Of a stretch of 64,000 bases of DNA, positions 7,990 to 63,820 are shown one piece after another (position 1 is the first letter of the stretch; each line of letters begins with the position of its first letter). This DNA is from Thioalkalivibrio sulfidiphilus HL-EbGr7. GTDB lineage: Bacteria > Pseudomonadota > Gammaproteobacteria > Ectothiorhodospirales > Ectothiorhodospiraceae. The stretch covers positions 2,614,501 through 2,678,500 of the forward strand of contig NC_011901.1 in NCBI RefSeq assembly GCF_000021985.1, given 5' to 3'. Under the pieces are notes generated by a model that was not told the DNA's origin, did not search any database, and worked only from the letters and a program-made list of their open reading frames with translations. The position numbers and the translations under genes are program-made.

Positions 7990-8099
7990 GGGGGCGGCCA
8001 GTGCTGATGAGTGTGGGGATACAGTGCAACGGATGGTGGGGTGGGGGCAAGCGGATGGGGGCTTGGACTTGTGTTGAGTTGAGTTAAAGGCCAAGCCAA

Positions 8100-8758
8100 A
8101 GGCCAAATCAAAGGCTTCCGATCCCCGTTGCACGGGGCTCGGGTTACTTTTCTTGCTTGTCCAAGAAAAGTAACCAAAAGAAGGACACCCCGATGCCGCA
8201 CCCGCTGTTCGCGGGTCCCCTGCGTTGCTCGGCTTCGAGGGGGTCGCCTGACAGGCCGTCCCTGGCCTGGCAGGCGACGCGCCGCGTCCCTGCGGCGCCC
8301 CTTCGGGCTATTTCCCTCGAAGCCTGCGCTACTCGGTGCGGCATAAGGGGGAGGCGGGTCAAAACCGCTTCGAGTTGCTTTGGGTTTTCCTGGTGGGAGC
8401 CCCGACCCCGGGGCGAATGATGGGAAATTCGCCCCGGGGTCGGGGCTCCTACGAAAGAACAACAAGCTACCCAGGTTAAGGGGGTTGCTGCCTTTGACGT
8501 CCCCCCCGTTTTTCTCGCCGAGCACGGGGGTGTTCCGGGGTTAAAGCCCGTCAGGGGCGCCGCAAGGATGCGGCGCGTCGGCTGCCAGGCCAGGGACGGC
8601 CTGTCAGCCGACCTCCCCGGAACACCCCCGCGCGCAGGGCACCCCGCAGGGGCGAGAAATTCGGGTGTCCTTTCTTTGGTTACTTTCTTTAGACAAGTAA
8701 AGAAAGTAACCCGAGCCCCGTGCAACGGGGATCGGAAGCCTTTGATTTTGCCTTCAGC
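8100..8758. repeat. Large nested palindromic element between pit and sixA
   Basis: The 783-base gap between sixA and pit is filled by this element. Its left end (about 8098-8195) returns in inverse at about 8655-8754. The shared part contains CGATCCCCGTTGCACGGGG and then a hairpin (GTTACTTTTCTTG...CAAGAAAAGTAAC at 8144-8175 on the left, GTTACTTTCTTT...AAAGAAAGTAAC on the right). The middle holds a REP-like hairpin at 8393-8453. Frames across it give only low-complexity arginine/proline-rich translations. It resembles long noncoding dispersed palindromes, not a gene; no transposase is present. Confidence 0.75.
8393..8453. repeat. REP-like hairpin, family A
   Basis: GGGAGCCCCGACCCCGGGGC and its inverse GCCCCGGGGTCGGGGCTCCT flank a short GATGGGA loop region. 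The GGAG tail and CCGACCCCGG core match the elements at 52653-52719 and 60015-60040. Confidence 0.7.
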
Positions 8759-37532: not shown

Positions 37533-37590
37533 GTTGGGCGTGACGCGGGCTATCGGTGTGTGGCCCAAGGGTAACAGGGAATCGGGTCGG

Positions 37591-37699
37591 AAGTGAGAAG
37601 GGGGAATTGAAGTAAGAAGGGGGAATTGGGAAGTAGGAAATAAAAGACCTTACTTCGCACTTTCCAATTCCTGCTTCCTGCTTCCCACTTCCTACTTTT
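37591..37699. repeat. Heptamer inverted-array element, GAATTGGGAAGT family
   Basis: Left arm AAGTGAGAAGGGGGAATT... to GGAAGTAGGAAA (37591-37640) and right arm ACTTCGCACTTTCCAATTCC to CCCACTTCCTACTTT (37652-37698). The right arm supplies the TAG stop codon of mazG. Confidence 0.85.
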
Positions 37700-50236: not shown

Positions 50237-50716
50237 ATGACCGCCGGACTACTAGCCTCAGCAATCATGATGGAAATGGATGCCAACACCCTGCCCGTCT
50301 CGCCCCCCTCGTCTCCGGCCCATCCCGGTGGCGTCAAACCCCCATCCAGCGGCACGCTGGTCCTGCATCGCGGGGCCGACGGACAGCTGCACCTGGAGCC
50401 CCGGGAGGCATCCGACCACGGTGTGCTGGGCCTGCGCCCGGTGGAACACCTGGCCGTGGCCCTGGGCGGCTGCCTGTCGGAATTCGCCGGCCGCTTCCTG
50501 GAACGCCGCAAGCTCCCCCCCACCCTGCGCATCGAGATGCACTGGGGCGTGAGCGTGCAGCAGTGCTGCATCGACGCCCTGCGGGTACGCCTGCACGTGG
50601 ATGCGCAGCTGGACGAGATGGGCCGCCAGACCCTCTACCGCATGCTCGACCAGTGCCCGGTGCACAAGGCCCTGCATGGGAATGTGGAGGTGACGCTGGA
50701 AGTGGTTGAAAAGTGA
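50237..50716 (+). CDS. OsmC-family protein
   Basis: A 159-residue OsmC/Ohr-like protein. The two conserved cysteines are in VALGGCLSEFAGRFLE and LDQCPVHKALHGNVEV, spaced as in peroxide-reducing members. The N-terminal 30 residues are poorly conserved, so the start could be ATG 50267 or 50276. The last codon and stop (AAG TGA) lie inside a heptamer hairpin shared with the convergent arsB. Confidence 0.82.
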   Translation: MTAGLLASAIMMEMDANTLPVSPPSSPAHPGGVKPPSSGTLVLHRGADGQLHLEPREASDHGVLGLRPVEHLAVALGGCLSEFAGRFLERRKLPPTLRIEMHWGVSVQQCCIDALRVRLHVDAQLDEMGRQTLYRMLDQCPVHKALHGNVEVTLEVVEK

Positions 50717-50778
50717 GAAGGGTGAATTGGGAAGTAGGATTTTCACTTCGCACTTCCCAATTCACACCTCTCACTTCA
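50711..50778. repeat. Heptamer inverted-array element, GAATTGGGAAGT family
   Basis: AAGTGAGAAGGGTGAATTGG and on to GAAGTAGG (left), TTTCACTTCGCACTTCCCAA and on to TTCACACCTCTCACTT (right). The left end includes the osmC stop and the right end the arsB stop, both written AAGTGA. Confidence 0.9.
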
Positions 50779-53893: not shown

Positions 53894-55407
53894 GGCCGCA
53901 CCCCCTGGGCCGAGCCCAGCACCGCATCGATATAGCGGGACGAATCCAGCATCTCCACCGCGGCCCGCTCGGCCAGCAGGTAGATGGGCTGACCCCAGAG
54001 ACCGATGAACAGGGTCATGAGACCGAGGCCGACGATCGGCAGCACCATGAGCCAGAGGCCACCCTGGTGGGCCGCGGGATCCACCGGGTGCGAGACGCCT
54101 TCCGGCTGGGCCTTCCAGAACACCTCCGCCCAGATCTTGATCATGGAATACAGGGTCAGCAGACCCACCACCAGGGCCACGGCGACGATCCACCAGGCCT
54201 CCACCTCCACGCCGGCGCGGATCAGGATGAACTTGGCGAAGAAACCGGACAGGGGCGGCAGGCCGGCCAGGGACAGGGCCGGGATCAGGAACAGCACGCC
54301 CAGCCAGGGATGGCTGCGGTACAGCCCGCCCAGGTCCTTGAGTTCATGGGTGCCCTTGAGCCGGAACACCACACCACTGACCAGGAACAGGTTGGCCTTC
54401 ACGATGATGTGGTGCATCAGGTAGAACACGCCGCCGATGATGGCCAGCGGCGTGAACAGGGCCAGGCCCAGGATCATGTAGCCGATCTGGCTGATGATGT
54501 GGAAGGACAGGATGCGCCGGAACTCGAACTGCGCCGCCGCACCCAGCACGCCGGTGAGCATGGTGAGTGCCGCCATCCACAGCAACAGCGTGTGGGTGTA
54601 GCCCACGTCGTGGTCGAAGATCAGGCTGAACACCCGGAACAGGGCGTACACACCCACCTTGGTGAGCAGGCCGGCGAACAGGGCCGAGACCGCCACCTGG
54701 GGCGTGTGGTAGGAGGCCGGCAGCCAGAAGAAGAACGGGAAGGCGGAGGCCTTGATGCCGAAGGACACCATGAACAGCATCGCAATCACGGTGATCAGCC
54801 CGGTGTCTTCCAGGTCGTTAAGCTTCACGGCGATGTCCGCCATGTTCAGGGTGCCCGTCAGCCCGTAGAGCAGGCCGATGCCCGACAGGAACAGGGCCGA
54901 GGACAGCAGGTTCAGGGTCACGTACTTGATGGCGCCTTCCATCTGCGCCCGCTCGCCGCCCAGGATCAGCAGGGCGAAGGAGGCCACCAGCATGACCTCG
55001 AACCACACGTACATGTTGAAGATGTCGCCGGTGAGGAAGGCGCCGTTCACGCCCGCTAGCAACAGGTGCATGAGCGGGTAGTAGCCGTAGTGCTCATGGC
55101 GCCGGCTCACCCCGGAGAGGGAGTACACGGCGGTGGCCAGGCCGATGATGGCCGTGAGCACCACCATGATGGCACCCAGCATGTCGGAGACCAGCACGAT
55201 GCCGAAGGGCGCCGGCCAGCTGCCCATGTGCATGACCTGGATGCCCTCGTTCCAGGTGAGCAGCAGCAGTTCCACCGACACCCACATGAGCGCCAGGTTG
55301 GCCACCACGCCGATGGAACGCTGGGCTAAGCGCGACCGCCACAGGGCCAGGGACACCGCACCCGCGATCAGCGGGAGCATGACGGGCAACGCGACCATGG
55401 TGCTCAT
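53890..55407 (-). CDS. mrpD: Mrp Na+/H+ antiporter subunit D
   Basis: A 505-residue NuoN/NuoM-like proton-pumping subunit with about 14 helices. TM5 glutamate region [19 protein letters not shown], lysine region [20 protein letters not shown] and [20 protein letters not shown] are characteristic. ATG 55407 overlaps the mrpC stop (ATGA). It works with MrpA in ion transport, giving sodium/alkali tolerance. Confidence 0.95.
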
Positions 55408-55751
55408 GTGTCGGTGTCCTTCATCTGGTCCATGTCATCGGCGCGCACCACCTCGTAGGCCCGGTGAATGAGCACCACGGCGAAGGCCAGCACGCCGAAG
55501 CCGATCACGATGGCGGTGAGAATCAGCGCCTGTGCCAGGGGATCGGCCACCGGGCCGTCGGGCACCAGCATGCCTTCCGGGATCAGCGGCGGCAGGCCGC
55601 GATCCATGCCCGCGGCGGTGAAGATCAGCAGGTTCGCCGCGTTGGACAACAGCACAAGGCCGATCACCAGCTTCACGATGGAGCGGCGCAGCATCATGTA
55701 GATGGCGGCGGCATAGAGGCCGCCGACGGCGAACGCCATTAACGTTTCCAT
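55404..55751 (-). CDS. mrpC: Mrp Na+/H+ antiporter subunit C
   Basis: A 115-residue NuoK-like subunit with three helices: [39 protein letters not shown] and [20 protein letters not shown]. The NAANL and [14 protein letters not shown] motifs define it. AGGAG precedes ATG 55751, and the start codon lies in a perfect hairpin (55743-55760). The upstream gene is not mrpB but the four-helix-bundle cassette. Confidence 0.94.
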
Positions 55752-55760
55752 GTGGAAACG
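55743..55760 (-). promoter_or_regulatory. Hairpin over the mrpC start codon
   Basis: CGTTTCCA (minus, 55760-55753), two bases, TGGAAACG (55750-55743): an eight-pair stem whose middle contains the ATG. AGGAG is just upstream and stays free. It could damp mrpC translation unless opened. Confidence 0.6.
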
Positions 55761-55765
55761 CTCCT

Positions 55766-56283
55766 GAAATGGGAAGGGAGAATTGGGAAGTGGGAATGGA
55801 AACCCGCTTCACCTACCCTCGCATTGGCCATCATGCCTTGCCTGATTGTTTGGTTGTTTTGATGCATGCAATCAATATGGCGATCAACTCGTCGCATTCG
55901 TTCATGAGTGCCTCAAGCCCTGGGCCCGCGGACACCTTGGATTCTTTCAACAATTCCAGCCAGTAGAGCGTCTCTTCAAGCTCCTGCAGGGCGAGGCCCA
56001 GCTTGCTTCTGAACTCCGCCCGGGAGCGGCTGTGTCGGCATTCCCGATAATGCGCGCCCACCGATGTCGCCGAGCGCAGTACCTGCCTACCGATGATTCG
56101 CCCCTCCATTGACCCCGGCAGCTGCCCCACAAATCGAATTACGTTAAGCGCCAGGCGCTTCGTCCTGCCCCGCAAATCATCCATGACCCGGAGCCTCCCT
56201 GATCGTTATCTATTCACTTCTCACTTCCCAATTCCCACCTCGCACTTCCATTTCCACTTCCCAATTCACACTTCCCACTTCAA
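55766..56283 (-). mobile_element. Four-helix-bundle (23S-IVS/Avd-like) cassette with inverted heptamer arms, inserted in the mrp operon
   Basis: Arm 1 (55766-55805) reads GAAATGGGAAGGGAGAATTG then GGAAGTGGGAATGGAA. The inverse of arm 2 (56243-56283) reads GAAGTGGGAAGTGTGAATTG then GGAAGTGGAAATGGAA, about 33 of 37 matching. A second array copy lies inside arm 2 (56213-56240). Between them is a single gene of the S23/TIGR02436 family. The block splits mrpB from mrpC, which are adjacent in other Mrp operons. In the mRNA the arms would pair, much as the stem around intervening sequences of 23S rRNA does. Mobility is inferred. Confidence 0.6.
55831..56184 (-). CDS. Four helix bundle protein (23S rRNA IVS-type, TIGR02436/S23)
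   Basis: A 117-residue helical protein of the family found in intervening sequences of 23S rRNA genes and distantly related to the Avd accessory proteins of diversity-generating retroelements. Signature parts: RLALNVIRFVGQLPGSMEGR, IIGRQVLRSATSVGAHYREC, RSRAEFRSKLGLALQELEET and LYWLELLKESK. These proteins form basic pentamers that bind nucleic acid (known for Avd); no catalytic function is known. AGGGAGG lies nine bases before ATG 56184. It sits inside the mrp operon, in the same direction, flanked by inverted repeats. Confidence 0.9.
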   Translation of the reverse strand: MDDLRGRTKRLALNVIRFVGQLPGSMEGRIIGRQVLRSATSVGAHYRECRHSRSRAEFRSKLGLALQELEETLYWLELLKESKVSAGPGLEALMNECDELIAILIACIKTTKQSGKA

Positions 56284-56284
56284 A

Positions 56285-56710
56285 TCAGTCTTCCGCCTCG
56301 GCCAGCGACAGCATGATGGTCAGCACCGCACCGATCACCACCAGGTACACCCCGATGTCGAACAGCAGCACGGTGCCCACCTTCAGTTCACCCAGGGCCG
56401 GGACGTCCAGGGTCAGCCACTGGGCGGTGAAGAAGGCCTGACCCAGGAAGGCGGCGGGCACGGCGGACAGAGACGCCAGCGCCAGACCCACGCCCATCAG
56501 GGTGCGCGGATCCACGTGCAGCACATTGCGGGCGGACTTGATCTCCATGGCGAACAGGTGCAGCAGGATGGCCGCCGCGGCCACCAGGCCGCCGATGAAA
56601 CCGCCGCCCGGCTCGTTGTGGCCGCGCAGCAACAGGAACACGGAGAACAGCATCAGCAGCGGCAGCAGGAAGTGGGCCGCGGTGCGCAGGATCAGGGACT
56701 GCATGTTCAT
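56285..56710 (-). CDS. mrpB: Mrp Na+/H+ antiporter subunit B
   Basis: A 141-residue MnhB subunit with four helices: [20 protein letters not shown], the conserved [38 protein letters not shown] and [23 protein letters not shown] 56710 overlaps the mrpA stop by four bases. The heptamer arm of the cassette begins 1-2 bases after its stop codon. Confidence 0.95.
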
Positions 56711-62226: not shown

Positions 62227-62239
62227 GGCGCGATTCGGA

Positions 62240-62362
62240 ATTCAAAATTCAAGATTCAAGATTCAAGATTCAAGATTCAAGATTCAAGATTCAAGATTCA
62301 AGATTCAAAGGAAGAGACAGTGGTTGCCCTCCCTTTGAATCTTGAATTTTGAATGTTGAATT
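62240..62362. repeat. Heptamer inverted-array element, ATTCAAG family
   Basis: Ten 7-base units on the left (ATTCAAA, eight ATTCAAG, ATTCAAA; 62240-62309), a 23-base spacer, and CTTTGAAT/CTTGAAT/TTTGAAT/GTTGAAT on the right (62332-62361). Between convergent genes (61993 and ompW), so it probably ends both transcripts. The left array is longer than the right, as if recently expanded. Confidence 0.92.
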
Positions 62363-63661: not shown

Positions 63662-63663
63662 TT

Positions 63664-63820
63664 GAAGGTAGAAGGGTGAATTTGGAAGTGGGAAATAAAT
63701 CAAGGCCGTTCAGCTCGCCCCAACCCTCTGCCTGAGAGTAGAGGGAGTTGGTTTAATTCACACTTCCCAATTCACACTTCGTACTTCCATTCCCACTTCC
63801 CAATTCAGCCTTCCAACTTC
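63664..63820. repeat. Heptamer inverted-array element, GAATTGGGAAGT family
   Basis: Left arm GAAGGTAGAAGGGTGAATTT then GGAAGTGGGAAATA (63664-63698); right arm TTCACACTTCCCAATTCACA through CTTCCCAATTCAGCCTTCCA (63757-63815), about twice as long. The 58-base spacer is unique. The right arm overlaps the stop codon of the 63805 gene. Confidence 0.85.

Follow-up and report, generated by a model that had tools for sequence, protein, structure and literature searches.

In REPIN/RAYT systems, the RAYT gene encodes an HUH (Y1) transposase and is flanked by REP palindromes. Flanking repeats also accompany genes of the S23 (TIGR02436) family in the intervening sequences (IVS) of 23S rRNA, which are already known. 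The IVS of Coxiella burnetii is reported to carry heptameric GACAGAT repeats at its 5' end, with RNase III cutting at the first heptamer (PMC4990558). Heptamer arrays have been reported from intergenic DNA as well, GGGAATC in Xanthomonas and Nostoc (PMC4692102), TAACTGA in Beggiatoaceae (PMC4679880) and further arrays in Geobacter (PMC2700814); the passages considered from these three reports draw no link between the heptamers and an S23 gene or a mobile element. Here we analyze a stretch of 64,000 nucleotides (nt) from Thioalkalivibrio sulfidiphilus HL-EbGr7 (NC_011901.1, positions 2,614,501 to 2,678,500; the window), in which an S23 gene enclosed by inverted arrays of 7-nt tandem units is located between mrpB and mrpC. 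Heptamer-armed S23 cassettes of this type, homologous to the 23S IVS, look like a widespread and largely unrecognized class of mobile elements across many bacterial groups. In the open-access PMC literature no link was found between S23/TIGR02436 genes outside rRNA and heptamer arms, although an earlier description is possible. Locations between protein genes, universal 7-nt arms, lineage-specific words and dispersed gene-less derivatives were likewise not found in the literature searched.

Results

The S23 gene of the window encodes a protein of 117 amino acids, and the cassette measures about 470 nt in all (Table 1). Its arms, 37 nt each and 444 nt apart, are complementary in inverse at 33 of 37 positions (89%), and the right array is longer than the 37-nt arm (about 56211-56282). 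An initial annotation of this DNA, made from the letters alone, had placed a TIGR02436/S23-type gene between mrpB and mrpC, bracketed by arms that match in inverse at about 33 of 37 bases. Its coordinates are right, the protein matches both PF05635 and TIGR02436, and the 33/37 match is recovered at 55765-55801 and 56246-56282. It was silent on the cassette-specific heptamers, on the dispersed gene-less palindromes and on the way heptamers follow protein lineage. Judging from the sequence, the Shine-Dalgarno element of mrpC likely survives in the short stretch that separates the downstream arm from the start of mrpC. As the cassette sits between cistrons in sense orientation, it would be transcribed with the host operon.

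The view of the locus as a cassette with inverted arms at a clean insertion site agrees with the comparison of mrpB-mrpC junctions that the annotation had proposed: the junction is closed or short in other genera, with empty sites of 2-22 bp in several relatives. The same cassette is present in the congener G290, with an S23 protein 91% identical to that of the window. In the congener G291, the same junction is occupied by an S23 gene that is different (55% identical) and has GGATGAA arms, despite mrpB and mrpC being 79 and 96% identical to the window genes. The cassette can thus differ at one site with its neighbors unaltered, gene and arms varying jointly as a unit. The distribution of S23 cassettes is patchy.

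The same anatomy recurs in many phyla. We collected 169 distinct S23 genes, using Pfam for Gammaproteobacteria and Bacteroidota and similarity to the window protein for other groups, and examined flanks of 300 nt; both flanks were available for 161 genes. Inverted arms were found for 118 of these 161 genes versus 0.9% of shuffled flank pairs (107/150 after removal of close relatives), which bears out the arm enrichment around the family that the annotation had suggested checking. Tandem periodicity in the flanks is almost exclusively of 7 and 14 nt, with period 7 in 55/163 and 45/168 S23 flanks versus 18/620 control windows. Within arms, at loci chosen on inversion and not on period, the autocorrelation reaches 0.74 at lag 7 and 0.76 at lag 14, all other lags giving 0.21-0.32. 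The left heptamer is the reverse complement of the right one, with at most one mismatch, in 62 of 79 cases, while this holds for 3.8% of comparisons across loci. The cassettes use dozens of distinct heptamer words.

The window protein belongs clearly to the S23 family (TIGR02436, 85.4 bits for a curated cut-off of 24, E 3e-24; PF05635, 62.7 bits for a curated cut-off of 33.8, E 4e-17), and its Pfam and NCBIfam matches comprise only S23 families plus one weak uncharacterized subfamily. The AlphaFold2 model (mean predicted local confidence, pLDDT, 92.8) consists of four helices and predicts a four-helix bundle. The closest structures in the PDB are 2rld (template-modelling score, TM, 0.81-0.84) and 2gsc (TM 0.80-0.84), both S23-family proteins with five chains each, followed by 4dwl, an Avd protein; the relationship to Avd proteins put forward in the annotation is thus supported by the modelled fold. 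Between the window and G290, nonsynonymous (dN) and synonymous (dS) divergence amounts to 0.050 and 0.536 for the S23 gene and to 0.041 and 0.457 for mrpC. By these substitution rates, S23 is under purifying selection and is constrained as strongly as mrpC. Between co-directional neighbors, S23 genes are in sense orientation in 78 cases and in antisense in 9. Both purifying selection and sense bias point to a protein that is expressed and of importance to either the element or the host. Membership in a defense system was rejected, PADLOC giving none, and so was membership in a phage family, for which PHROGs gave one weak match only.

The heptamer word follows the protein lineage. Protein identity and heptamer similarity are correlated (Mantel r=0.296, the largest of 999 permutations reaching 0.064), also among pairs of proteins below 50% identity (r=0.147). 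GGATGAA arms recur in Bacteroidota, Planctomycetota, Chloroflexi and Acidobacteria with proteins that are 63-73% identical; at such identity unconstrained DNA should be saturated, yet the word is kept. Heptamer polarity is constant (58:0). S23 copies within one genome have different words, and host-specific heptamers are rejected by a within-genome similarity of 0.446 versus 0.455 between genomes: the words are cassette-specific. A frame-independent stop-codon role of the 7-nt unit was rejected too (stop frequency 0.52 versus 0.56 in shuffled units). In sampled stretches, 13 of 16 arrays match a resident cassette, with about 2.4 expected. Because the word tracks the protein, polarity is fixed, words differ from copy to copy and arrays match resident cassettes, these sequence patterns suggest that the S23 protein recognizes its own heptamer.

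Gene-less derivatives are numerous. The mrp-cassette heptamer pattern GAAKTGRGAAKTGRGAA, with at most 2 mismatches, has 27 matches in the window versus 0.05 expected, and 156 in the genome versus 4 for the reversed control pattern. The arms that the annotation saw bracketing the S23 gene are present, and their heptamer also forms gene-less palindromes elsewhere in the window, so that such arrays are not peculiar to the locus. Exactly three S23 genes of the host genome exceed the Pfam cut-off, and the control genomes have none. The second cassette lies between sucC and sucD with inverted ATTCAAR arms, the third between rpsI and tRNA-Gln with inverted GTGGCAA arms, and both words occur in many gene-less arrays (278 and 175 genome matches, respectively; control 0 for each). 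At 13 of 17 sampled sites the window heptamer forms paired palindromes, with identical polarity in all. The gene-less copies have a common order of variant units, GAAGTGC-GAAGTGT-GAATTGG-GAAGTGC..., as judged by eye, and for this reason look copied from each other rather than independently grown. The window heptamer is present in 5/5 S23-bearing congeners (91-165 matches each), and its pattern gave 0 matches in 19/19 genomes of other genera without an S23 gene over the cut-off.

Cassettes with heptamer arms also occur inside 23S rRNA. Two were sampled, L264 and L062; one such cassette is in the congener G291, and the L062 copy is decayed. Given these cassettes, the classic 23S IVS is a member of the heptamer-armed S23 class, in line with the kinship that the annotation had stated. 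From these cassettes and the Coxiella heptamers, the 23S IVS is therefore best seen, on sequence grounds, as one target choice of the class.

Table 1. Features of the mrp cassette, its host genes and the gene-less arrays in the window.
Feature	Coordinates	Strand	Evidence or remark
S23/TIGR02436 four-helix-bundle gene, 117 aa	55831..56184	-	profile matches, AlphaFold2 model, dN/dS
Upstream (gene-sense left) heptamer array, ~10 GAAKTGR units	56211..56282	-	starts 3 nt past mrpB stop codon
Downstream heptamer array	55765..55801	+	inverted copy of upstream array (33/37)
AGGAG-bearing stretch from downstream arm to mrpC	55752..55764	-	likely mrpC Shine-Dalgarno; sequence
mrpB (MnhB/MrpB), host gene upstream	56285..56710	-	PF04039
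mrpC (MnhC/MrpC), host gene downstream	55404..55751	-	PF00420
Gene-less palindrome (solo), mrp-cassette heptamer	37590..37698		RNA fold z -5.3; common to congener G290
Gene-less palindrome (solo), mrp-cassette heptamer	50710..50777		RNA fold z -7.2
Gene-less palindrome, mrp-cassette heptamer	63669..63818		loop between arms inverted in strain ALJ17 (63663-63820)
Gene-less ATTCAAR palindrome, type of sucC-S23-sucD cassette	16004..16091		
Gene-less GTGGCAA array, type of rpsI-S23-tRNA cassette	22493..22531		
Gene-less ATTCAAR palindrome	62239..62361		length differs ~42 nt in ALJ17

Array lengths differ by 14, 21 and ~42 nt between HL-EbGr7 and ALJ17, two strains of the species. These differences, together with the inverted loop of one gene-less palindrome, indicate that arms slip and recombine. 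ALJ17 has a fourth S23 cassette (L263, ~1423-1953) with GAGTTAG/GTGAGGG arms, which the best homologous locus in the window genome lacks; this best match is ~70% identical. Gene-less arrays similar to those of the fourth cassette are found in the window genome (L286:8702-8871). Translated frames show an apparent gene-less ATTCAAR element directly after sucD, behind the sucC-S23-sucD cassette (L001, 2793-2900). Apart from the arrays, no match to the ~9-kb window segment 40803-49777 was obtained in the ALJ17 contig that corresponds to it; the stretches on both sides align well. At 8092-8750, two stretches of ~240-290 nt match the same two places of G290 in opposite orientations, possibly as another inverted repeat family.

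Discussion

We consider that the mrp cassette is probably a one-gene selfish mobile element, made of an S23 gene between inverted arrays of its cognate 7-nt word, whose protein would recognize this heptamer and whose gene-less copies would be non-autonomous derivatives. The explanation that competes at the level of RNA is an IVS acting in mRNA: RNase III would cut the stem formed by the arms, freeing the S23 message and splitting the mrp transcript, so that the insertion is tolerated, and mobility would be secondary. The heptamer-armed cassettes in 23S rRNA, the RNase III cut in the Coxiella IVS (PMC4990558) and the sense bias of 78:9 speak for it, as does RNA folding, in which the mrp arms pair and gene-less copies form strong hairpins. 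However, the fold of the mrp cassette has a z of only -2.4, and the arm mismatches, read on the sense strand, comprise 84 G-U types versus 101 A-C types. As G-U types are not in excess, there is no sign of selection keeping a stem in the sense RNA, and its maintenance by selection was rejected. Of the stem that the annotation envisaged around the gene in the mRNA, what stands is that the RNA is predicted to be able to fold into it. An IVS acting in mRNA also leaves the protein-heptamer correlation and the dispersed gene-less palindromes unexplained, and we find it rather unlikely as the main explanation; RNase III may in fact process the 23S members, and possibly also the mRNA members.

In another reading, which we consider unlikely, the arms would be repeats with a regulatory or structural role for the host, and S23, domesticated as a protein that binds the nucleoid or RNA, would use them as its binding sites; the elements would no longer be mobile. 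Purifying selection, old sites shared within the genus and the presence of all compared elements in both strains would fit such domestication, but the swapped cassette at the mrp site, the different heptamers of different S23 copies in one genome, the cassettes inside 23S rRNA and the patchy distribution do not. A dependence on reverse transcriptase (RT), S23 being the Avd-like partner of an RT encoded elsewhere in the genome, is very improbable, even though Avd and the ribonucleoprotein of diversity-generating retroelements (DGR) are among the nearest folds. The only RT match of the host genome, at 1734272, is distant from each of its three S23 genes, and no RVT_1 match was obtained in the S23-bearing single-contig genomes G122, G125 and G262, in the two-contig G242 or in the drafts G276, G279, G084, G291 and G287. 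These genomes largely refute RT as a general requirement, and an RT is not required. Hardly credible is the accumulation of ordinary slippage-prone simple repeats in intergenic DNA with S23 genes among them by chance. Many bacteria do have an excess of heptameric repeats (PMC4692102, PMC4679880), and strains differ in array length by roughly multiples of 7. Slippage alone is nevertheless contradicted by the inverted pairing with matching words in both arms, the arm enrichment, the link between word and protein lineage, the variant order common to gene-less copies and the lack of the window word in all 19 S23-lacking relatives.

In the selfish-cassette model that we favor, the S23 protein would recognize its cognate heptamer in nucleic acid, probably single-stranded or in a hairpin, and the bound protein would recruit an enzyme of the host to copy or move the element. 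Because S23 would recognize the heptamer and bring in this enzyme, gene-less palindromes could be passengers mobilized in trans, by analogy with REPINs and RAYTs. Slippage in steps of 7 nt would alter the length of the arms, which would also recombine with one another. Several observations weigh against this model. Inverted arms are not detectable for 27% of the S23 genes. No insertion event is resolved to the base level, the empty sites coming from other genera (~75% identity), and no target-site duplication is evident. Every element of the stretch compared with ALJ17, a strain of the same species, is shared. The window protein has no catalytic domain among its Pfam and NCBIfam matches or in its all-helical model. 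Joint inheritance of gene and arms could partly explain the protein-heptamer correlation. Two S23-positive genomes from outside the genus were sampled over 100 kb, where G262 has no gene-less array and G249 has one. Finally, that S23 binds the heptamer, that a host activity takes part and that the elements move today are all inferred, and the binding step in particular has to be counted among the weak points. More tentatively, a new class of mobile elements may be involved, in which a non-enzymatic, probably pentameric four-helix bundle reads a lineage-specific 7-nt code in single-stranded DNA or RNA and spreads the cassette and its palindromes; we rate this wider proposal as quite possible but somewhat doubtful. 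It would explain the 23S IVS and much of the heptamer excess.

If true, this reading links three puzzles: where the 23S IVS came from, what the very common "four helix bundle protein" family does, and why heptamers are over-represented in bacteria. With over 100 proteins, paired with different 7-nt words, the cassettes form a natural set in which recognition is directly testable. Should recognition and mobilization in trans be proved, the cassettes would represent a new element class.

Among known systems, the 23S IVS such as that of C. burnetii (PMC4990558) is similar in having an S23 gene within terminal inverted repeats with heptamers, and the window cassette likewise consists of an S23 open reading frame bounded by inverted repeats able to pair. 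In contrast to it, most members described here lie between protein genes, as does the cassette between mrpB and mrpC, each has its own heptamer, and gene-less palindromes are dispersed in the genome; moreover, the Coxiella reading frame was described as decaying (PMC4990558), whereas S23 is conserved here. The Avd proteins of DGR (PDB 4dwl, 8ube) have the same fold as the S23 model, but S23 needs no RT in the genome, has its own inverted heptamer arms and lies in surroundings that give no hint of a retroelement. The heptamers of Xanthomonas often form convergent pairs like the cassette arms (PMC4692102). The likeness to REPIN/RAYT (PMC3116915) lies in a few repeat-flanked protein genes accompanied by many dispersed, mostly intergenic gene-less palindromes of the same sequence, and such paired palindromes are found here (13/17 sites, 156 genome matches). 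S23 differs from RAYT in being a four-helix bundle and not an HUH nuclease, and its repeats are 7-nt tandem arrays.
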